A stretch of DNA of 64,000 nt from Castor canadensis (taxonomy: Eukaryota; Chordata; Mammalia; Rodentia; Castoridae): positions 146,222,473 through 146,286,472 of the forward strand of contig NC_133389.1 of NCBI RefSeq assembly GCF_047511655.1, read 5' to 3'. Position numbers and translations under genes: made by a program. Positions 3,429 through 56,100 of this stretch are shown one piece after another; position 1 is the first letter of the stretch; each line of letters begins with the position of its first letter. The notes beneath the pieces are model-generated. The model saw nothing but the letters and a program-made list of their open reading frames with translations, was not told where the DNA came from and searched no databases.

Positions 3429-3666
3429 CCCCAAAGTTTTTTTTTTTTTTTTTATTACATCTGGGCTGAAGGAACTATAATATTCTCAGTGCTGTCTAGT
3501 GGTTTTTTTTTTTTCATTTTTCTTTTATTATTCATATGTGCATACAAGGCTTGGTTCATTTCTCCCCCCTGCCCCCACCCCCTCCCTTACCACCCACTCC
3601 GCCCCCTCCCTCTCCCCCCCAATACCCAGCAGAAACTATTTTGCCCTTATTTCTAATCCCCAAAGT
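3429..3666 (-). mobile_element. 5'-truncated L1 with possible 3' transduction and 9-bp target-site duplication
   Basis: CCCCAAAGT occurs at 3429-3437 and 3658-3666. Between them, read on plus: a 17-T run, about 50 nt of non-L1 sequence (3454-3502), a second T-run (3503-3514), then an L1 3' UTR piece (CATATGTGCATACAAGGCTT and a C-rich tract). On the minus strand this reads L1 end, poly(A), extra sequence, poly(A), the layout of a 3' transduction. The same L1 end recurs at 52808-53487. Confidence 0.7.
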
Positions 3667-6930: not shown

Positions 6931-9900
6931 GAAAGTTTTCTTTTTCCTAAAAATAAAATGGGTGTCAGTGGTGTTAGGTCTTTAGGGCTGTTGTTATTTT
7001 TCGTTACATATGTTATAGATTAAATAGGGAGAGAAAAGCTTAAATTTAGAAGTATGTAAGAAACAGCAAAATATGTTTCATTGCTTGACATGAAAACATC
7101 TACAGTGACAGGAAAAACATTGTAAAGACACTAACAGAACTAAAAAAAAATAAGAAATTATGACTAAGTTATGTAAAAACTCATGCAAGTTGATAAAAAT
7201 CAGACATCAGGAATTTATGATATAAATTTTAAAATAAGTGCTGTTACTGATTCCAAAATCAACAACACTGTACTGTTAATGAGAGTGTTTTAATCATGCT
7301 GTTGGTGGCAGTGCAACCAAGTTTAATTTCTCTAGAAAATAATTTAGGTATAAGTGTATAGCAAGATCTAAAAAATATTAAAAGTTTTGTAGCCTTTCCC
7401 CATATCTTGAAATTAATTACAAATAACCAAAACTAATGGCATAAAATACAATTAAGATGTTTGCATATTGTGATTAAAACCCTACAAATGTACAAATGCT
7501 TGTGAAAATCCTTGATTTTCTTCCATATATGATGTGATTTTATTGACTCACCAGAATTTTTAAAAATTTATAATTGCTGATTTTCAGTAACTAAACTATA
7601 TTCATGTATAAGTTATCAAATGGTTTTGTGGATTTTCTTAGGTGGGAGAAGAAATCCCCTGTCTCCTTTCATAATGTACCTAGAGATCAGGAATCCTTTC
7701 TGTTCCTTTAGTTGATTCTTATGCTGTTCACTACTGTCTCCAAATGGCATGTCCAGGTCTTCCTGTTGACTTGACCTTCAGCCACTATCTATTTAATGAA
7801 GGATGATTTGGTGCTTTTACCACTTCTGCATACACCAATTCCTCAGTTCTGGTTTCAATTTAGAACATTATTTAGTGTTACATTTTTATACTATAAATGT
7901 TACTTATGTCATAAATGTAACTGATTCATTGAAGTAAACTATTACTTTTTCTTTCTTGCAGTACTTGGCTCTGGCCTTAATTATTTTCTTAATTTTTTCC
8001 TTCTTAATTCTTCCTTTCTATATATCAAAATCTAAACCAGCTCTGTGTTTTGGAGTATAGCTTTAAAAAGGAAAGGAAATATGGGTGCTCAGGGATTTAC
8101 ATAGTTTTCTTATATATTAAAAATTATTAAACTTGGTAATGATGTTATTGGACTGGTAATTGATAATTAGGTTAGTAGTTTGCTAGTAAAAAATTAAGTA
8201 GCTTTGACATTTGGATTACGTTTTTGTAAGAGCCTGCTAAGTGTTAGAACTGTATCATCTCACCTTATTCAACAAAGTGAGGACTTTGATGGCTCAAAAT
8301 AACTAAGGAAAGCTAAAATTAATTGGGCAGAAAGCTGCCCTGGTAGGGAAGAAGTAGCTTCTGTGTTGTCAGCAGCATAAAAAATGTCAGTGTTACAGAC
8401 ATTGCTGTGGAGATAGTGTGATCATTGCTCACTACCTCCAGACTCCAGAAGGATCATTTTAGCTGGTGATTCATGAATGTGTGGTGGGTGAGCTGGTGCA
8501 GAATCAGGAGTGTGTAATAATGATCCTGTGCTGAGAAAGAAAACACAAAGGAAGAGTAAAGATGGACGAAGTGATTAAGAGTTGAGGCAATGGCAGTAGT
8601 TCTGAGAATGTAGACAACTACTCTTCTTGATGTATGTTATTGTAGATTTATGTGCATCTGGAGTGGAAAGAGGTTGACGCCTATTTACTGAAAGTAAAAT
8701 CAAACATTTTGGTAACTTCAAAAGACATTTCAATATTTAGTGACTGATAAAGGCATCCCAGTCAGTGCATTTTTGCTAATCTCAGATGTTCTTTGTATCT
8801 CCAAGTAGAACAGATGTTGCAAAATTATAGGTAGGTTTTTACAATATAGTTTCAGATTCTTGCTAGTGAAAGGTTAAAAAGCAGAATGCAAGTAGTTGTT
8901 TGGACATTTAATGTGAAAGTGTAGGTTTGTACATAAATGGTTAGAATGCAGTAAAGATGGATTTGATGTGTTGATATTTCTACTTTTTAAGTTAGTGAAA
9001 CGGGACAAGCATGAATTATACCTAGGCTCAATTAGCATGCATCTACTGTTTTCATATGAATGTCTCTCAGTGGCAAAATTAGTGATGGCCTGAACTGTGC
9101 TTGCTTATTTGTTATTTACTGATTTATTTATTCATTCACTCATTTACTTAAAGAGTTTCATTGGCATTTTGAACTGTGAATATGACTTTAGTAGATTAAA
9201 TACCTGTAGAAGTAAGAATACAAAATGGTAGGTGAGTTCAGGTGTTACTTCCTTTGTTTTGCAGAGGGTAACTAGTGACAGTGTTGGGATGAACCAGATA
9301 AAAGGTTTCTGATTGCTGGTCTGTGGTGCTTTAGACAAATGTAATGCAATTGGTGGACACACAAAAAAAAATGAGGATGAAACCCAAGTTATATTACTGT
9401 TAATAATTTATACTTAAGTAGCATTTACATATTATAAAAATAGGAAAACAATAAAAAGCATAAGCCTTTTACCACTTAAAAATGTGATTCTCTTAGTTAA
9501 CTGTAAAATAAAGCAGAAATTAATAGCACCACATCATAGGTGGTGATATGACAGAGATTTGGTGACTTGTACAGACTTATAACTAATACGCCAAGTTAGA
9601 CTCTAACAGATCTTTCACTCCTTGACTAAAATTTCTTCATTGGGCATATAGGCTCATTGCTTCTCATTTCTTCTGCTCCTAATGTTATGGAACCACAGAA
9701 GGAAACTAAATTGATACCTGACTAACATTCTTATGAAGCTAAAGACTGATGAAGCCATTCACTGATAGAAATAACAGTTGTGTTTATGTAATTCGAGATA
9801 TAAATAAAAGTGATATTTTACCATTATTTGAAGACATGCAATAGTGAAATCTTAAAAAAAATTCCTTTATAAAATTAGGAAACTGATCAAATAAATTTTC

Positions 9901-10640: not shown

Positions 10641-11899
10641 TCTTAAATTTTCTACACTTCTGTTCCTCTGTATGGAATAAAAAGCAGTTGTCTTGATACA
10701 GTATCTGTAGAATGATTTGTAATGATAGCAATTAGTGTATAAAGCGATGTAAACTTTAATTTTACTTGATAAAACCTGTATGTAACTTGGCATTTTATTC
10801 AATAAAAACTACAATAGAAAGACTTTAAAGTTTTTTGGAAGCCTTTTTAGAAGAACTTCCTATGGAAAATAATAACTGTAGTTCCTCTTTTTTTGTTGCT
10901 AATAAATAAAAATTGTGTGCTTTCTTTGTATACAAGATTGTGTTTTGAAATAATGTATACTTTGTGGAATGGATAAATTAAGTGAATTAACTTAAGCATT
11001 ATCTCACACATTTTTTTTTTTAATGGTGAGAAAAAAAAAAACACTTGAGGGATTTTCGTGTTACCCTTTGCAAGGTCTATTTAATCTTCTCTGTATCATT
11101 CCAGTTTTAGTGTATGTGCTGCTGAGGTGAACCCTCATTCCTCTCACTTTAGGATCTAGTTAGTCTTTCTTTTAAGTATAATCATGTGCTTTATACTAAG
11201 CAAGATCTTTTGGTTACTAAGGACAGTTTTTTTCTTGTTAAAAATAGATTTTTCTATTACAGTATTAAGAGTACATGTAAAAATGGGTGAAATTAAGTAA
11301 GATCTGTAGTTCAGTTAATATTGTATCAGTGTCAGTCTCCTGGTTTTGAAATGTCCTGTCGTTATGTACGGTGCTGTCATTGGGGAAAGCTGGATGAAGA
11401 GAACATGGAAATTCTGAAGTGTTTTTATAACTTCTTTTGAATCTCAACTTATTTCAGAATTAAAAAGTTAAAAACTTCATCTTCGGGGATTAAGTTTTCA
11501 GGTTTTAAAAAAAATTCTGAGTTTACTAATTAAAAGTTAAAATATATATGTTCTATGTAGGGGTTTAAAGCTAAGTTTTGAACTCTAATGTGCCTGCAGA
11601 AAAATACCCACATTTTCATGAAGCGAAGTACACTCATGTAACCCTGTACCTAGGTGAAGAAACAGAACTTTTAACAAATTCCATGATTTCTCCTACTCAC
11701 TTCCCATACCAAACTGTAAACACTATCCTTACTAAATATTTAGTTCTGATATTACTGCTAAATACAGGAGAACATTATGTGAACATTATTTTTTTCTTTG
11801 CTTCCAAAGCAAAATATATGCATCAAAAATAATATAATAATTAGCATAATGACTACATTCCGTTACTGTAAATTAACTCCACTCTTAACTAGAAATTAT

Positions 11900-19970: not shown

Positions 19971-20294
19971 GGATCAGCAAACTTTTTGTAAAGAATCAGA
20001 TAGGAAGGAAGCCAATAATCCCTGCATAAATACTGGTGTTTTCCTTAAAGGGAGTGGGAATAATTTTTGAGTCTTGAGCAGTTTGCACTAATTTGAAGAA
20101 CTGTATACTATTATGATCAACTCAAATGGCCATTTTAAATGGGGAATTGGAGAGGGAAGGAGTGAGTCACAGGCATAAAAAATGGGGAAAAACATTTGGT
20201 TAGTAGAGTAGGAGCTTTGAGGTTGAGTATTTTGAATGTGCTGAGGTATAAAGTAATCCTTCTGTGTTTTTAAATCCCTTTAGGAGAAACAGAA

Positions 20295-21284
20295 ATGAAG
20301 GTACATATGCATACGAAATTTTGCCTCATTTGTTTGCTGACATTTGTTTTCCATCATTGCAACCATTGCCATGAGGCGCATGACCACGGTCCCGAGGAGC
20401 TTCGCAGACATCATCGTGGAATGGCAGATGTGGATCCCAGCAAATTTTCTGTGCAGGCTGAAAATGAAAAAAAATACTATATTGAAAAACTTTTCGACCG
20501 TTATGGTGAAAATGGAAGACTTTCCTTTTTTGGTCTGGAGAAACTTCTAACGAACCTGGGGCTCGGAGAAATAAGAGTAGTTGAGATTAATCATGAGGAT
20601 CTTGGCCACGATCATGTTTCTCACTTAGACATTCTGGCGGTTCAGGAGGGAAAGCATTTTCATTCACGTAGTCACCAGCACTCCCACAATCACTTAAATG
20701 CAGAAAATCACACTGTGACCAGTGCATCAGCAAAAAGAAACCATAAGTGTGATCCAGAGAAAGAGACAATTGAAGTGTCTGTGAAAGCTGAGGACAAGCA
20801 CGTGCGTGACCATAATCATCGCCCGCATCATCGCCATCGTTCGCACCTCCACCCTGACCACAACGCGACCCGCCCTGTCCGTAACGATTCCATGGCTCAC
20901 GGTGAGCGTGCGGAGCCTCTTCATGGACCTTCAACAGAGACCAACAAAACACAAGAGCAACCTGAAATTAAGTCGCGGAAAAAAAATAGGAAGAACATCG
21001 AGGAGAAAAGCAGCGAAAACCCCGAGGTTATCACACCGCGTTTCCTCCCGAGCCGCGATCAGGGGGAACAGTATGAGCACAATCGAGTTCACAAACCTGA
21101 CCGTGTGCACAACCCAGGTCATCCTCACCCGCATGCTCCAGAGCGGAGCGCTCACGACCCTGATCCGGATAATGAAGGTGAACTTCGACACACGAGAAAG
21201 CGAGAAGCACCGCATGTGAAAAAAAGTGCAATTTATTCCGCTGCTAGCCACAAAGATCATAGTGAAGATGATCGCCAACACGAA
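20295..21284 (+). CDS. SLC39A10: SLC39A10 coding exon 1: signal peptide and His-rich ectodomain, residues 1-330
   Basis: The acceptor AG is at 20282-20283, so this exon also carries 11 nt of 5' UTR (20284-20294). The donor is GTAAGT at 21285, phase 0. The ATG has G at -3. Residues 1-25 form a hydrophobic signal peptide. Residues 58-95 keep the helix-forming stretch with YYIEKLF and [11 protein letters not shown]. His-rich tracts follow at 121-135 and 168-190, then a basic, disordered part. N-glycosylation sequons are visible at N138, N190, N197 and N217. Compared with human ZIP10 (from memory), residues about 170-210 have several His replaced by Arg or Pro. A gap of about seven residues near 288 accounts for the shorter length. 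The 3' half of the exon is CpG-dense (see findings). Unspliced, the frame would run on only to 21356. Confidence 0.97.
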
Positions 21285-24200
21285 GTAAGTACAGACGGTG
21301 TCCGCGCTGCTCGGTGGTCTTCACATCACGTGCAGCCCTTCGTAAGGATAAGGTGAAGAGTAGAACCGCGTTAAAAGTCACTTCCGCACGTTTAGCTAGG
21401 GAACAGCAGGTAACAGCCTACAAAAACCAATAAGGAATCAAAATCAGTATGAAGATTTTTTTTTTTTTAATTTGGATTTTCACTTGTCTTGTTTCTTTTA
21501 TTTTGAAATTGTAAATGTTTTTTGAAAACGTTTATTTTAATTCTTCATTGTACCATGTTGCTTATGTGTTATTTGACTCTCCAAGTTAGGTTTCACTATT
21601 ACTATCCTTAGCTGGTCTCTAGGAACTTGAAAATTAAAATTCTGTTGTTCATCCTATCCTTTTGAGGAGTAGCTAAAACAGTTTCTTTTTCACAGTTATT
21701 AATTTATTAACTACTAAGTGGTTTCACAGTCATTGTATCTCTAAAGTTAGGTATTGTGTACGTGTTTTATGCTTGCTTTTTCTGTTCCTTTGTGACAAGG
21801 CCTATTTACTCAGGATATTGATCTTTTCTCAAGCCTTTAACACATGTAGAGTGACTGCAAAAAGATACAATAATAGGAAAGTCCAGGTTTTTCCTTCTAA
21901 ACTGTCATACTCCTGGATACTTTGTCTCCATTTAAAAAAAAAAAACTTTACCATAGGCATATTTTTTTTGTTTCATTAAAGATGTACCAGCACCCTTATT
22001 TATTTTGATTTTTAGCATTCTTACTACAGTTTAGAAAAAAATTGAATTTGTATATTGTTCATATAATAGAAAGCAGTACCATCAAATGTAAAAAATGATC
22101 TTACCCTTTGCTGTTTCTGTCACTGTCATTGAGATATGTTTTGCATCTAAATAAATAACTTTCTTCCCTGGCTAAATCATCATATATTTTGGATTTTAGC
22201 AGTTATAAACACTGTCTTAGTAATACACATTAAGATCATAGTGTGTTTTTTAAAAGTGTGCATTTATTACTATGGACAAGATTCTGGAAGCTTTTATTTA
22301 TAATAACTAAATCTTGTGACTCTGTATCAGACTGAAGTCTGCAGCTTCAGTCTGGTTTTTGGTGACCTCACAAGTCTAATGCATACTGAGAATTCTCAGT
22401 ATGAATGAAAATGAAAATGTTCTATGCATTGAATAGGGTAGTACCTCATGGTAATTAAGACCTAAGAAGAGTCGTTTTTGTGTGTCTGTAGGTTTTGATT
22501 GTTTTGTGTGTGGGTGAGTGTGTGTGTGTGGGTAGATAAAACCATGTAGTAAGATAACAGGTCAGTAAACAAGCTTGTAGTCAGAGTGGATATATGTATA
22601 AAAGGGGAGGAATATCTCCTTTGCATTAATTACAGATACCCCTTTTTACTATAGGATGGATCCAAACTTGTTTGCTTTTTTTTTACTGTAGTGGATAGTG
22701 CTGCCTTTCTTTGTGTGTGTGTGCATGTGTGCTGGTGACTAAACCCCAGACTTTGTAAAGGCATGCTAGGCATCCCCAAAATCTGCTTTTTTTTTTCCCC
22801 TCCCTTGTTCCTATTTTGTGTCCCTCAACCCACATTGGGCTAGAATTTCCCAATAAAACGTTTCCATATTCCCTTTCTTTAAATGGGCTGGGGATTGAAC
22901 GCAGAGCTTTGCACAAGTGCAAAGCTAAGCAGGTATTTAACCACTGAGCTACTTATTTATATAAGCCCCGATATAATATTCTTTGTAAATGCCTTTGGCA
23001 GTCACAGTGTCTATACTATGACTTTTGAGTTCACTGAGGATTGCAGTTTGATAAGGAAATGATTTTTCTCCTCATTTCCTAAGAATATTGGCGCTATAGT
23101 CCCATATAATCCATAGAAAGTCTTCAGTAATCTAGTTGAATGTATGCCTATCATAAATTTTTACAGATTCCTATAAAAATGTGGTTTGTTTTAGATATCT
23201 GAATTATACATTATTTTCAAATGATACTTAAACTATATTTGTTATACCATAATTTATTGTTCTGCATAATCTTTTTAAAGACATTCTTTAATCTGTTTTG
23301 TCAATTTCCTTGCAGTGTTTGAATGTCACTCAGTTGCTAAAATACTATGGTCATGGTGCCAGCTCTCCCATCTCACCTGATCTGTTTACATACCTTTGTC
23401 CTGCGTTGCTGTATCAAATTGACAGCAGACTTTGTATTGAGCATTTTGACAAATTTTTAGTTGAAGATTTAAATAAGGATAAAAATCTGGTTCCTGAAGA
23501 TAAGGCAAATATAGGGGCCTCAGGTAAGAAAGAGTTTTTTAAGTTTTTTCTCCTTTAATACCTGTACTTGTCTTTCAAACTATACCTGAATTAGAAAGGA
23601 ATGTTAACTTGTTGGTTTCCTTTAAGTGTCAGACTTTAATGTTTTGTCAGTTTTTGTGAATGTTTAAAAAGTACTGGGGGGAAGAGAGGAAGCACATGTG
23701 TTAATGACCGCTTCTGTCATTATGAAGGAATGTTTTTGCCATGGACGGAGAACTAGATTAAAAGGAAAACACAAGTTTTTGACCTGTCTTAACCAAGCCC
23801 CTAATTAAACTTCTGTGGTGTTATAATTTACTTAACCTTTAGCACAGTTAGGGCCTCCGGTGGAAAGCCAAGATTGCTAAATTTTTAAAGAAATAGAAAG
23901 GGAAGCTAGTGTGGTTAAACTCCAGGAATGTCTGAGAAATGCCAGATGGTTGAAATATGAACTTCATCACTTTCTTCTACGGAGCCTCAGCTGGTATAAC
24001 ACCAATACCATTTTAAAACTTCTCTTAAGCTTTTTTTCCTGTTATACTCAATTGGCTACATAGCACCACTGTGATATTTGTAAGTACTTCCTTCTCAACA
24101 TCTCAAAAAAGTTTGTACTGCTTATTGGATCCCAAATGCCAATACAAATCATTCTGTTGATAGAATCTGAAACTTTTTTTTCTCTATAAAATCTGCAGCT

Positions 24201-30200: not shown

Positions 30201-33200
30201 GCTATACCCCCATTCCTATTGAAGAGTCTTTTGTAAACATGTTTGTAAGAGTACATGTTATTTTAATATGATCTTAAATGTAAAATGTACTAAGCTCAAT
30301 TTTTAAATAAGCCTCTCAAGCTAATATTTTATTAGCATGTTAAGTTATATTGTAAAAGTTGTTAATCATCTCAAATTATCAAATTAATAGCATTCTCTGT
30401 ATAATATTTCTGTTGCATATGTCTTCATAGGCAAGTCCAGAAATGTAACCCAAGAAAAAAGAATAAATCAATATAACAAGGTTTACCCAACTAGATTTTT
30501 TTGTAAATACAGATTTTAATGTAGTAGTTTAACCTGGTTTTATGAATTTTCTTGAACATTGAGACATAGGAATAAAATCAGTACTTTTACTGGACAGTGT
30601 TGATGACTCATTCAATTGCAATTTTCATCAAAATACTCAGATTAATAAAAAATTCTGGTAATTGTAAAGAGTTACCAATTTTGCTCTGTATATATTGTGT
30701 ATTTTAAGTCTTATGTGTACTTTTGCAGTGTTGATCCACATATGTTTACATTAGTAAGTATATACAATTCTTTATTCTTTTATAGAGTATTTTAGGAGTA
30801 TGAAACATGGGATTTCCCAAGTAGTTCAGTGCATTTTTCTTTCAGTTATTAGTTGAAGTTGCTTTTAGGTTGCTTCTTGGAAATAAATTGTGTCTAGAAT
30901 GGATTATTTGCCAAACTAAGGAAAATATATACTTGGAAAGGGGAACTTACATATTACTGTTTGAGAAATATTTTGTTTAGTACTAATGTTTTTGTTACCA
31001 GCCTCAATTTGTCCCATTAAAGTACTCTGTCTCCTAACTCCCCCACTCCTACCCTGAATATGTTAGGACCTCAAGAGCTCTGATAATTTTGACAAACCTT
31101 TGTTGGTTTAGTTTTCTGATGACTTCACTGGCTTCAAAACAAGCATGAGACTCTGTGTTCAAATCCCAGTACCACCAAACAAGCAAACAACAACCACAAA
31201 AAACCCTTAGGTCTTAAATTTGTGTCTATGGCCACTTCTCTGACCCATTAATACTGCTCTGCTCTCTCATCAGTTTATTTTGCTCCCACCTGCAAATAGG
31301 GACTACTATAGCAACTGTAACTTGGTTATCATTCATAAGTGAGCCTTTAAACCATATTTGATTATGTGATTTTCTTTCTGGAATAGCGTTGTTTTATTTT
31401 TTTAACTTACAGTGCTTGTAATACTATAACATATGGGGGATTTTCCTGTTATCTTTTGCTTCCACTAACCAGGATATTACTTTTAAAATAGTGTTTCCCT
31501 GACCATGTTCCTCAAGAATTGAGTTCCTGCTTCTTCCTTGCCTCAAAATATTGCAAGAATTGAAACCACTAAATCCAAGTCTAATAGCTGGACCCCCATA
31601 GCTCTCACATTGAGTCTGTTTGAATCTTTGCCTCCTTCGGTGATAGGTGACCTGTTGTTTTAATTCAGTGAGCTAATTTAACAAATGAGCATTGGCAGTC
31701 ATGTTAATGTCATCAGATACTGTGAATACAGTGTCCAGTGGGTAAACATAATTTTATTGATAATGTTTAGAATTTAATGCATCTATGAGTGTCATCCCCT
31801 TACTGGTCTTCTCCTTGTTTCAAACATTTTAATTTATCCTGATGACAAGATACATTTTTCCTTTGCTCACTTACAAGACTTAGTATAATATCGTCCAGAA
31901 AATTTATAGTCGTACTAGATCTGTTGACAAAAATATTTTAGATTAAAACTTTTCAAAATTGAGCTGGAGGCATGGCTCAAGCAGTAGTACACCTGCCTAG
32001 CAAGTACAAAGTCCTGAGTTCAAACACCAGTATCATCCCCTCCCCACAAAAAAAACTTATACAAGATTATTTTAAGTTTTCTATAGGCAGAGTTTGAAAC
32101 AAATAGAATTAAAAAAACTAACTACATGTTTACTTTAGTTTCAATAGAAATCATAATGAAAATACACAGCCCTTAACACTAGCATATATTTCTGGTATCT
32201 GCTTATGAATAGCCAGGATAAAGAAATATGTGCAAAATTACCCTTTCTCACACCTATGTGTCTCACAGGTTATATTATAAAAGCATTCGTATTATTAGTG
32301 AACTATAATCATATAGTGAGGTTTTTTTCTTTTTTTTTTTTTATGGTGGTACTGGGGTTTGAACTCAGGGCCTCATGCTTGCAAGGCAGGTGCTCTACCA
32401 CATGAGCCAGTTCACCAGCCCTTTTTTGAGATAGAGTCTCTGAATTGGCCTTGATTGGCGATCCTCCTGATCTCTGCCTCCCAATAGTTAGGATTATGAG
32501 CATGAGCCACCGGTGTCTTGCTCATATAGTAAGATTTTTTTAAAGTGGTAAATTGTATAGAAAGTCAAGTTGGAGGAGAGACAGTTTGGAGGAGAGAAGA
32601 ATCCAAGAAGAGGATGGTTGAATTTTTTTTGTTTTTTTTAAAGTTATACTGGGGATTAAACACAGGCCTTATGTCTGTTAGCCAAGTGCTCTCCCACTCA
32701 GCTATACTCCAGACCTTTTTTAAAATTTTATTTTGAGACAGTCTCACTGAGTTACTGAGATTGTCCTTGACCTTGCGATCCTTAGCCTCCAGAGTAGCTG
32801 GGATTATGGATGTGTGCCATCATGCCCTGCTCTGAATCATTCTTTGTAACAATAAGGCTACTAGTAATAAGACTTTTTGTTATTCATGTGAATATATTTC
32901 CCTTTGGGGCTGATTTGTTAAGTGTCCTAAACTTTGCATTAGAAAAATTTACAAAGATTATGATACATTCGATACTTGGCTTCATTTAATGCTCACAGGA
33001 GAGTTGTGCAATTATATCCTTTAAGTAGGCTTTTATTGTTTTATGCTCTACTTTTAGATAGTGGAAAATGAATATTTACAGTCTGGATAGTGAATCATTG
33101 CCTTAAGTAATTTTAAGTCACTATTCTAATGTTGTGGACTATTGCAGATTCTACTTATAACTTGAACTGAGTTTCTTAGTTTTTTAAAAAATGTTCAAGT

Positions 33201-50153: not shown

Positions 50154-53100
50154 CCCCCCTCCCCCTCCCCTCCTCTCTTCTTTCTCTTTCTCTCTGTGGT
50201 ACTGAGGTTTGGACTTAAGAGCCTTATGCTTGCTAGACCAGCGCTCTACCACTTGAGCCATGCCCAGCCTGAATGTTCACTTTCAGTGTACGACAACAAA
50301 AACATCAGAAATCTTTGGCTGTACCTTACAAACCATAGACAAAAACTAACTCTAAAATAAATCAGTGCCCTGAATTTGAAATCTAAAAAATAAACTTCCA
50401 AACGATAACATACTTACTGTATTCCTGTTTACTAAGTATCTACCCAAGAGAAATGAAAACTCAGGTAGTAACTTTCTTCGTAATTGCCAAAAACGACCTA
50501 AATTGTTGAATGTCTTTGTGCCCTTGGGTTACAGACTGTTCTCAGACACAGCACTAAAAGTGTGATCCATTAAGGAATAAAGTAAAGGCCTTTGGAACCA
50601 AATACTTAAACACCTCTTAATTTAGTATAGGAAAACAATCTGTTCCCCCTCCAGAAAAAACAGGCAAAAAAATTTGAATAGACATTTCACTAAAGAAAGT
50701 ATACAGATGAAAAATAAATGCGAGATTTATTTCAGCTGTTGGAATTGTTGTCATGGGCTGGTAAGGATATGGAACAACTGAGAACTCTCACAATTGCTGC
50801 TGGAATGAAGTTTCTTACAGAGTTAGAGACACACTTACTGAATTCCTGTTTACTAAATATCTACCCAAGAGAAGTGAAAACTTAGGTAGTAACTTTCTTC
50901 ATAATTGCCAAAAAAAAAAACCAACCTAAATTGGTGACTGGGTAAACAAAGTATGGTTCATCTATGGAATGAATAAAAAGAAGTAATTTCCTGATATATA
51001 CAGTAACATGGCTGAATCTTTCATATATTATGCTAATTGAAAAAAATCCAGACTCATTTCATATTACATATGATTGCATTTATATAATGTTCTGAAACAG
51101 GTAAAATGATAGGGGCACAAAGCCACTCCATGGTCTTGGGGTAAGAGGCCTAAGAGAATTTGTGGGGTGGGGGGTATTAATGAGACAGTTTTGATAGTGG
51201 TTATGGTTACATGGTATCCATGTCTGTCAAAATTCATAGAATTGTACATCAGAAATATAAGAAAAAAAGTATATCTTGATTTTAAAAGTATTAAATAAAA
51301 ACGATTCATCCTGAATCTCGATTAGTTAATTCACGCTGTTCGACTGTTTACTCAGGAATGAGGTAAACCATTATGGTATCCAGTAATGAGAAAGCAACAG
51401 AGTTGATGGAGTTTGACCCTATTGTTCATTGACAAAAGTATTACTCATTGAGTATTCAGTAAACCATCCTCCTGTTAAGCCACATAATAAAATTATAAAA
51501 GAATGCATCTCACAACCTAAAAGACCTTTTTGTAGTCTCATTTCTTGTTACCTGAACTATTACCTAAGTGAAATTGCCCCTTCAGCACAGTTGATTCAGG
51601 ATAAATTATTGAAAATATGGAGGAGAAATTTGTGGAGGAAAAGGTTAGGGAAACATTTTCTTAGAAAAAAAAAAAAAAACCCACAAAGATTTAAACCAAA
51701 CCCCAGGGGAGAGAAGAGATGAAAGCTGATAGTAAATCCAATCTCAGCAGGAGAATTAAGGTGGATTATTTAGGAGGAGAATAGGGTTATGTGGAAGCTA
51801 GAGCAGTTTGGAAGCCAGCAAGTATTCTTGGTGTGCTATCTTAACTTTCCAAATAATGCTGTGTTTTTATACTTGGTAGCAATTTACTGCAATCTAGAAA
51901 AATAATGCCTTACCCTAGTTCCTTTCTTGTTAACTTCTACTTATCTGTTTCAGGAGAACAGATCATGCATTTTGAGATATGTAGATGTTGGGGTCCTTTT
52001 TAAGGATAGGAAAAAAGTCCAATGAGTAAGAAAAAGCATTATAAGTAAAGCTATTGCTTTTGACCCCTCAGCTTCAAGAGTATGACCTCTAGCAGCATTT
52101 TACCCTTCCTCTAACATCAGAGCAGTAATTAATAATATCCCTGCCTACCTGCCCCCCCTGCCCCATCTGCAATGTTCTAACTTTAAACTGATGAGGAAGA
52201 AAATCAGTCTTCTTCAAGATCTTTTTTTGGTCCATTGAGACATTTGTATGTATGTACTTATATCTTTAGAAAAAGAGTCCTAGGATTTTCCCTCCTTTGT
52301 ACTTCTGTCTTGCTTCAGTTCCTGTACCCATGCTTCATGCTTACAGTTAGAAACCAGACAGTGACTTTGGAGTATGGCCTACTAAGGGCCTGGTGTTTAC
52401 TCTCTTCTGGTATTGCGGATGCCCTTAGAGCAGCAATCAGGACATTTATGTGCACCCTTATGGCAGCATGGAAGACGGTAGAAAAAGCTCTTTATTTGCC
52501 TTACTTTTTTTGGATTTTCAGTTAATGCTAATTTTTTCTTAAGGAAAATAAATGTGAATATAGCATAACATGTAGAAAGCAGAAGTGAGAGCAGAGAGCC
52601 CTTAATTGTTACTTTAAAAAGCAATGGCTATTCTTTTTATTCTCTTGTATTTTTCTTGACTTTTTTATTTTTAAAGAAATCTTACAAGTTGCACAGTAAA
52701 ATTGGCTTTTTGTGTATGAATTTTAACGTGTAGATTTACATGGCTACCACCATAATCAGGCACAGAACAGTTGTATCACCTAACAATCCTTGCCCCATAC
52801 TATCCTTTTTTTTTTTTAATTTTATTATTCATATGTGCATACAAGGCTTGGGTCATTTCTCCCCCCTGCCCTCACCCCCTCCCTTACCACCCACTCCGCC
52901 CCCTCCCTCTCCCCCCACCCCCTCAATACCCAGCAGAAACTATTTTGCCCTTATTTCTAATTTTGTTGTAGAGAGAGTATAAGCAATAATAGGAAGGAAC
53001 AAGGGTTTTTGCTGGTTGAGATAAGGATAGCTATACAGGGCATTGACTCACATTAATTTCCTGTGCGTGGGTGTTACCTTCTAGGTTAATTCTTTTTGAT

Positions 53101-56100
53101 CTAACCTTTTCTCTAGTTCCTGGTCCCCTTTTCCTATTGGCCTCAGTTGCTTTTAAGGTATCTGCTTTAGTTTCTCTGCGTTAAGGGCAACAAATGCTAG
53201 CTAATTTTTTAGGTGTCTTACCTATCCTCACCCCTCCCTTGTGTGCTCTCGCTTTTATCATGTGCTCAAAGTCCAATCCCATTGTTGTGTTTGCCCTTGA
53301 TCTAATGTCCACATATGAGGGAGAACATACGATTTTTGGTCTTTTGGGCCAGGCTAACCTCACTCAGAATGATGTTCTCCAATTCCATCCATTTACCAGT
53401 GAATGATAACATTTCGTTCTTCTTCATGGCTGCATAAAATTCCATTGTGTATAGATACCACATTTTCTTAATCCATTCGTCAGTGGTGCCCCATACTATC
53501 CTTTATTAAAGCTGTTTTTTTGGTGTTTTTGGGGGGCAGTACTGGGGTTTGAACTCAGGGCCTCACACTTGCTAGGCAGGCGCTCCACCACTTGAGCCAC
53601 TCCACCAGCTCAAGATGTATCTTTTCAATGTTATTCTTAACTTTTTTTCTCATGGGTTTTCTCCATCCCAACTTTTTTTTAAAGCCAATGGTGTTAAAAC
53701 TCTCCCATTATTTCTTAATTGCAGGTGATTTTGCAGTTCTTCTTAAAGCAGGCATGACTGTAAAGCAAGCAATTGTGTACAACCTCCTCTCGGCCATGAT
53801 GGCTTACATAGGCATGCTCATAGGCACAGCTGTCGGTCAGTACGCCAACAACATCACCCTTTGGATCTTTGCAATCACTGCAGGGATGTTCCTCTATGTA
53901 GCCTTGGTGGATATGGTAAGATATTTGATGTTTGTTTGTTACCCTAAACCTGCAAAAGTAGTATGCAGCTTCCAGACATGGAAGAAATCTTTGGCGTGGT
54001 TTGAAGCCAAACTTTTTTTTTTCTTTTAATATAACCTATTTTAAAGATGTGATATCCAAAATAATCTATTAGGAGAAGACATTTAAGTAGAAGGATTCCT
54101 TTTTCGGAACCCAGTTGAGATGCTGAAAATTTCTAATCAATTGCTATCACTATTTAAGTAAAAATAATATTTAGAAATACAATCACAGATAAGTTATGCT
54201 TTGGGCTATAAGTGTTTTATTAACAAAATCTTTTTTAGCTTGTTTTACGGCAAACAAGAAAGAAATATTACTGTTTGGTAAGCCAGTGATCTACAGGGAA
54301 TGGCGTATATTCCAAAGGATTTTTGTATTTTCTCTTATTTCTTTCTAACTTTGGCTTAAAGCTAATGAGTTTAAACATCAGCAATTAGTTTTATTTGCTT
54401 TAATCCTCCAAATATGTTAGATAATGTCTCTATAGAACTAACAGTTTGGTTAGATTTTATTTTTATTTTTTTTAACTAGATATTACATTTATTTTTTTCT
54501 GGTAAAACTATGATAGACTCATTTCATTATATAGCCTAAATGTTTATCCATAGAATACCTATTTAATATGAAAAAATTTTAAATGTAAATAAGAAGAAAT
54601 AAAAATAATTTATATTCTGTTACCTAGAGATAGTCATTTCCCTTCCTTCTTCTTAGATTCCCGAATTCCTCATTTCCAATCTTGATAACTTCCAAAACTG
54701 AAAACTTGCTTTCTATTCATGGGGAACAGTGAAGCCATCCAGATACCCTCTACAAGTTCCCTCACCATTCTATTCCGCTTGCTATATCCCTACTCATTTA
54801 ACCTTTCTCCTCTTATTAAGAACTGTCCATGTACTAGACAAGGCTGGTCCCTCAAACTGTTCCCTGGACCCATCCCCTCCTGCTAACTCCCTTAAATTGT
54901 CTCTCCTTTTTCTTGCATCATTGCACCCTCTCTGCTGGATCATTCCTGTCAGCATATGAACTGTTCATTACTTCTCCTTTCTTAAGAAAGGTGAGAGAGA
55001 AGAATCTCTCTTAGCTCTAATTCCTACTTTAGCTATCACTCTCTTTTAATCATTTTTTTTTAATTTGTGGACTAAAGTTTGAACTCAGGGTTTCATGCTT
55101 GCACAGCCAACATTCTACTGCTTGAACCATACCTCCATTCCATTTTGCTCTATTTATTTTGGAGATGAGGTCTCACAAACTTAATTTGCCCAGGCGGGCC
55201 TTGACCTGCGATTCTCAAAATCTCAGCCACCCAAGTAGTTAGAATTACAGGTGTGAGCCACTGGTGCCTGACTATCATTTATTTTTAGATTCTCCTCTTT
55301 TTTGAGTAACACCTCATCAGTTTTCTCCCTGACTACTTTGCCAAAACTGCTTTAGTCAAATTTACCATTGACTATGACATTGCTAAGTCCATTGGTCATT
55401 TTCCATTCTTCATTTTTCTTGTCCTAACAGCAGCATTTGACAGGTTATCCTCCTTTGAACTTGTTGTAAATATGCTTTTGTAACACCTGGCCTTCTTACA
55501 CCTTTCTGGCCTTTTCTTTCTCAGTCTTCTCCCCACCACTGAATGTTGGCACATAGCCTTTGAATAGTCCCATCTCATAGCCTTCAAAATTTATTGCCTG
55601 GCATTTCTTATATTTATATCTTTTGCCCAGACCTTTCCTTAAACTCTGATCCATTTACTTGTATGTCTAAAAGACACTGCAAACTTCTGTATTCAGAACT
55701 TAGTTCTTGATATTTGCTAACACTATTCCTAGAGCATTTCTTAAAGACTTCATCATCTTATAAATGATACCTGCATTCTTCTAGTTGCTTAGACTAGAAG
55801 TCTGAGTATTTACCTTTGTCTGCACTTTTTCTGCCCTTCCCACAATCCACTTTGTCACTAAATTCTGAGGCTTCCTACCTCCAAATCACTAGTACCCCAC
55901 CAAGCTCAACCATGTCACCACCATCTTTCTCTTTTTAACTGCTCTCACTATTCTATCCTTGCCCACCAAACTCTGTATTAGCACCTCAGCTAGAGTGACA
56001 CACATAACATCATAGATGAGGTCAGGCTTGCATGAGCTTGTATATTGTATACACTGTGTGCTTCAATATCATCTCAGTCAGAGTGAAACCCTGAAGGCTT

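Follow-up and report, generated by a model that had tools for sequence, protein, structure and literature searches.

A CpG-dense patch across exon 2 and intron 2 of the Castor canadensis ZIP10 gene, probably an intragenic CpG island

The window, i.e., the whole stretch of 64,000 nucleotides of Castor canadensis DNA analysed here, contains the zinc transporter gene SLC39A10/ZIP10 with a patch of ca. 590 bp of dense CpG. Judging by its composition, this patch is probably an intragenic (orphan) CpG island with low germline methylation as the most likely mechanism, a reading to which we assign a probability of roughly 0.6. It covers the 3' half of exon 2, continues for 106 bp into intron 2 and is poor in G+C for an island. 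The excess of G or C at synonymous sites of the patch is specific to CpG context, and the stretch within the intron combines dense CpG with an ordinary G/C content outside CpG.

The ZIP10 locus and the extent of the patch

The human and mouse ZIP10 proteins used for comparison are provisional sequences, and comparisons with them serve as leads only. Exon 2 is identical to provisional human ZIP10 at 254 of 338 positions (tblastn), with agreement of the open frame and the splice boundaries, while seven of the eight tblastn stretches downstream of it are 87% to 98% identical and the eighth, which extends into an intron, is 68% identical. Joined by script, the nine exons give a coding sequence of 825 codons whose last codon is the sole stop, i.e., a full-length reading frame of a LIV-1 type ZIP protein, and there are three Pfam Zip matches in the window. 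The genome comprises 2.81 Gb, and the window carries ID- and B1-related SINEs by comparison with consensus sequences. Two Rfam tRNA matches (32344-32416 and 53534-53606, both on the minus strand) coincide with ID-type SINE matches and, because of this overlap, are probably no tRNA genes, and an Rfam U6 snRNA match within intron 1 (11030-11132, minus strand, 51.9 bits) is probably a U6 retrocopy. The most similar of the repeat pairs of more than 100 nt that were listed (3507-3657 and 52806-52961) is 92% identical and C-rich on one strand.

By the count of an earlier note on this DNA, 20801-21400 contain 49 CpG and the 600 nt before them about 13, with about ten at the start of intron 2; these counts proved exact, with precisely ten in the intron (Table 1). 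The 600 nt in question have a GC content of 0.528 and a CpG observed/expected ratio (o/e) of 1.18, and the neighbouring 600 nt contain 13 CpG upstream (20201-20800) and two downstream (21401-22000). Across the whole window, the GC content is 0.358, the CpG o/e is 0.17 and 600-nt windows taken at a step of 50 contain 3.2 CpG on average, with at most 10 in any that is clear of the CpG-rich segment. By its CpG positions, the core extends over 20801-21389, and the next CpG downstream lies at 21529. The maximum-scoring CpG segment (20377-21389) is wider than the core and extends 5' of it because the first half of exon 2 (20295-20790) is itself mildly enriched, with 13 CpG and an o/e of 0.59. At 600 bp, the stretch 20801-21400 is an island by the classical thresholds (200 bp, GC of at least 0.5, o/e of at least 0.6), and its GC content falls below the 0.55 of the strict definition (500 bp, GC of at least 0.55, o/e of at least 0.65).

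Table 1. Features of the CpG-dense patch and its surroundings (positions of the window).
Feature	Position	Strand	Remarks
SLC39A10/ZIP10 exon 2	20295..21284	+	start codon and N-terminal His-rich ectodomain, 330 codons; splice donor 21285
Weaker CpG-enriched shoulder, exon 2 first half	20377..20668	.	12 CpG
CACGTG E-box	20799..20804	.	motif scan; factor motif, contains CpG
CpG-dense core, ~590 bp	20801..21390	.	49 CpG, GC ~0.53, o/e ~1.18, GC outside CpG 0.436
Codons 170-201	20802..20897	+	~9.5 of ~14.2 weak-to-strong differences from provisional human ZIP10 within CpG
Intronic part of patch, first 106 bp of intron 2	21285..21390	.	10 CpG, at 21296-21389
Second CACGTG E-box, intron 2	21327..21332	.	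motif scan
ETS-type motif GCGGAAGTG	21379..21387	-	3' edge of patch; 0.02 expected, 1.8% of shuffles

The ten intronic CpG are free of codon demand, which we count for the island reading. Outside CpG, the GC content of this part (21285-21392) is 0.42, which lies within the intronic range since 14% of 786 intronic windows of 108 nt have at least this value, and CpG in the flanking introns stands at only about 15% of the level predicted by local base composition. From the first half of the exon to the coding patch (20793-21284), T falls from 132 to 77 and C rises from 98 to 147 with A and G nearly unchanged; this shift is absent from the intronic part and perhaps reflects amino-acid make-up.

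Synonymous sites in and outside CpG context

GC-biased gene conversion (gBGC) favours G or C at any mismatch of weak (A/T) and strong (G/C) bases, whereas loss of methylation affects CpG only. The sites compared were third codon positions with a synonymous choice of C or T or of A or G, split by whether the strong state makes a CpG. In CpG context, G or C occupies 23 of 50 such sites in the patch compared to 18/121 in the remaining coding sequence (p=5e-5), while the excess of the shoulder within the exon's first half is not significant (9/42; p=0.34 against the rest). Outside CpG context, the patch is indistinguishable from the rest (55/113 vs. 169/346, p=1), with 52/120 for the exon's first half. 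CpG is thus undepleted in the patch, given that the fraction in CpG context (0.46) is about that outside it (0.49). As a control, exon 2 of the paralogous ZIP6 gene in the same genome (locus L040, which we take to be this exon from its reading frame) has G or C at only 2/47 sites in CpG context and at 93/183 outside.

These counts make an unmethylated intragenic island, which the earlier note had offered as its second possibility, the best fit to the composition of the patch. An undepleted composition would be compatible with selection for CpG or raised CpG fixation as well: it shows that depletion was lost, not what caused the loss. The two products of methyl-cytosine deamination point in different directions, with CpA at an o/e of 1.06 in the coding patch vs. 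1.40 in the exon's first half, which we count for the island reading, and TpG still at 1.29 in the coding patch, which counts against it. Another point against it is the raised GC content at codon positions 1 and 2, which is 0.695 and 0.409 in the patch as opposed to 0.584 and 0.295 for the exon's first half and 0.556 and 0.337 for the rest.

Residue changes and alternative explanations

Compared to provisional human ZIP10, residues 170-201 differ by ca. 14.2 weak-to-strong and 1.0 strong-to-weak changes (summed by hand), in line with the lean from A/T to G/C described in the earlier note, and most of the weak-to-strong changes lie within CpG (Table 1). The remainder of the patch stands at ca. 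19.5:11.0, and the resulting 33.7:12.0 for the whole patch is no higher a ratio than the 14.0:4.5 of the first half of the exon. The earlier note had polarised the changes against human only. Of the 15 differences in residues 170-201, five are common with provisional mouse ZIP10 (R180, R193 and V195 among them), six are unique to the window and four differ three ways. CpG sites are hypermutable, so CpGs lost on the human side would pass for gains in the window, and where human and mouse had lost them in parallel, adding mouse as a third sequence would not correct the error. With lists joined by hand, 19 residues of the patch are unique to the window against provisional human and mouse ZIP10, 12 of them weak-to-strong and two strong-to-weak. 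Residue changes in the patch thus lean weak-to-strong and do so partly outside CpG, where seven of these 12 are found, another point against the island reading.

The linker shows a modest net loss of histidines, with 23 His compared to 28 in provisional human ZIP10 and 18 Arg compared to 14. At 0.679, the patch has a lower identity to provisional human ZIP10 than the exon's first half (0.867) and the rest (0.964). PMC5874730 presents the His-rich fragment in the ectodomains of ZIP6 and ZIP10 as predicted to be unstructured, which fits the tolerance of change in this linker. We note that seven residues of provisional human and mouse ZIP10 are absent between 21161 and 21162, a difference of 21 nt inside the patch.

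A mixture of processes, in which an unmethylated island also recombines and gBGC speeds the fixation of new CpGs mainly in the 5' 120 nt of the patch (20791-20914), seems rather unlikely. This segment has G or C at 8/13 synonymous sites in CpG context and at 17/27 outside, the latter figure counting against the island reading, and its residue changes are the most one-sided. Canids, which lack PRDM9, are reported to recombine at transcription starts and to show a rise of GC content there (PMC11323403). However, 17/27 is a small sample near the 0.49 of the gene, and with G or C at 6/25, non-CpG synonymous sites in the final quarter of the coding patch point in the opposite direction.

That gBGC at a recombination hotspot is the main cause, with repair favouring G or C at all weak/strong mismatches along a tract of ca. 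600 bp over exon and intron, was the first choice of the earlier note and is improbable. The size of the patch would suit a hotspot, its extension into the intron and the raised GC content at codon positions 1 and 2 are as this process would have it, and the one-sided residue counts, both against provisional human ZIP10 and among window-unique residues, lean the same way. Yet gBGC of the strength that would raise the G/C fraction in CpG context from 0.15 to 0.46 predicts a rise from 0.49 to 0.82 outside CpG context at equilibrium, or to 0.68 if one-way, and the observed 0.487 departs from both (binomial p=5e-16 and 3e-5, respectively; bootstrap P=0.003 for the weaker version). The GC content at third codon positions (GC3) of the patch is 0.482 compared to 73% to 100% for genes in a high-GC region of gerbils according to PMC7403616, and the residue ratio, as described above, is not elevated over the first half of the exon. 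We reject gBGC as the main cause on the non-CpG synonymous sites, including those of the ZIP6 control. A CpG-rich coding patch with changes to G/C-rich codons is easily taken for gBGC, but here only CpG context is shifted, and counting CpG-context and non-CpG synonymous sites separately distinguishes these two look-alike causes.

It is very improbable that the stretch is methylated and its CpGs are kept by selection or by raised fixation of TpG and CpA to CpG, since these forces, although CpG-specific as observed and both named for methylated islands in PMC4417305, would need to act specially on a divergent linker and an intron for which hypomethylation accounts without any special force.

The candidate island and its relation to known systems

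Under the preferred reading of a hypomethylated intragenic island, low germline methylation over the patch would prevent deamination of methyl-cytosine, CpG would not be hypermutable, and it would then stay at about the frequency predicted by local base composition. Low methylation may be kept by CpG-binding proteins of the CXXC type together with H3K4 methylation, perhaps with help of factors at the E-box and ETS motifs, and the patch might be used as an enhancer or promoter. The weakly constrained His-rich linker would have tolerated the CpG-linked changes between His (CAY) and Arg (CGY) or between Leu and Pro or Ser, with the codon changes being a consequence of the process at the DNA level and not its cause. 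Around 37% of weak CpG-context sites would need conversion to strong, which seems slow if unaided on one rodent branch, so pure hypomethylation suits old CpGs that were kept better than new ones that were gained. An unlikely version is that the island of this exon goes back, unmethylated, to an early placental ancestor, that methylation (e.g., in primates) let CGY arginines decay to CAY histidines, and that this species keeps the older state rich in CpG and Arg. If so, the His-rich, candidate metal-binding linker would partly record the methylation of its exon, and the balance of His and Arg in a zinc-sensing segment would be governed by germline methylation, with no selection acting on the protein. 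If truly unmethylated, the patch would be a candidate regulatory element inside a zinc transporter gene and an example in which the epigenetic state may influence how much His and Arg a metal-binding linker contains.

Fifteen motif strings (14 distinct) were tried in the patch and three of them reach 1% to 2% against shuffles. Two CACGTG in 20793-21392 compare to 0.23 expected, with two reached in 1.7% of shuffles, and these E-boxes and the ETS-type motif (Table 1) are a weak hint at regulatory use. The third is a human PRDM9 13-mer, with one match at 20849 and 0.01 expected; this check had been proposed by the earlier note, and the match is of doubtful meaning since the human motif may not apply to this species. 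With three of 15 strings at this level, motifs of CpG-type factors were rejected as too weak a basis for an explanation.

For comparison within the same genome, we surveyed 349 kb at a step of 50, in 6478 windows of 600 nt with no more than 60 N each. This survey comprised the window itself, 10 flanking and 14 arbitrary 10-kb loci, L040 and the search loci other than three overlapping the window, some of the search loci also overlapping one another. At least 25 CpG per 600 nt are reached in only five sources, i.e., the patch and loci L007, L026, L029 and L040, to which a base-by-base scan adds L024 (27 CpG), and the 14 arbitrary loci all stay below 25, with a maximum of 23 in L036. L026, L029 and L040 are loci at ZIP-family genes, and the CpG-rich stretches of L026 and L029 sit in a G/C-rich setting with a non-CpG GC content of ca. 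0.6 compared to 0.436 for the patch. The nearest strong CpG peak upstream of the patch, ca. 21 kb away, is found at 9389-9988 of L007, a locus separated from the window by 473 bases, and is presumed to be the promoter island of the ZIP10 gene. Two windows in its upstream shore (8551-9200) resemble the patch in composition, with an o/e of 0.92 and 1.08 and a non-CpG GC content of 0.44 and 0.41, which we count for the island reading. Inside this presumed promoter island, positions 9161-9410 are 250 Ns.

No retrocopy of exon 2 that could serve as a fossil outgroup was found among the protein and DNA matches in the genome. The protein search returned the gene itself and one weak match elsewhere, presumably a ZIP5 exon, and a DNA search with the patch, in which very common words were skipped and only the best candidates scored, returned only the patch. 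A search for relatives gave one chance-level match and no relative among solved structures and none among viral contigs, and our literature searches found no paper with both SLC39A10 and "biased gene conversion" and none giving ZIP10 peptides of this stretch.

Intragenic islands are a described class for which germline hypomethylation has been described as a keeper of CpG (PMC4417305 and PMC11170920), the former listing germline hypomethylation, selection for CpG, gBGC and CpG fixation as mechanisms and the latter reporting wide turnover of orphan islands between mammals. The patch is like these mammalian islands in its o/e near 1, its length of a few hundred bp and its position off the presumed promoter, and species differ widely in the set of orphan islands that they carry. 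It is unlike them in its G+C content of only 0.53 and non-CpG GC content of only 0.44 and in lying mostly in an internal coding exon. With the gerbil genes of high GC content (PMC7403616), it shares locally G/C-richer rodent coding DNA with amino-acid changes, but their high GC3 extends over a large region whereas the patch combines a GC3 of 0.48 with a shift in CpG context only over 590 bp. The presumed ZIP10 promoter island differs from the patch in that its CpG-richest 600 nt have a GC content of 0.76 and a non-CpG GC content of 0.67, yet it is like the patch in its o/e above 1 and in an upstream shore that is equally low in non-CpG GC.
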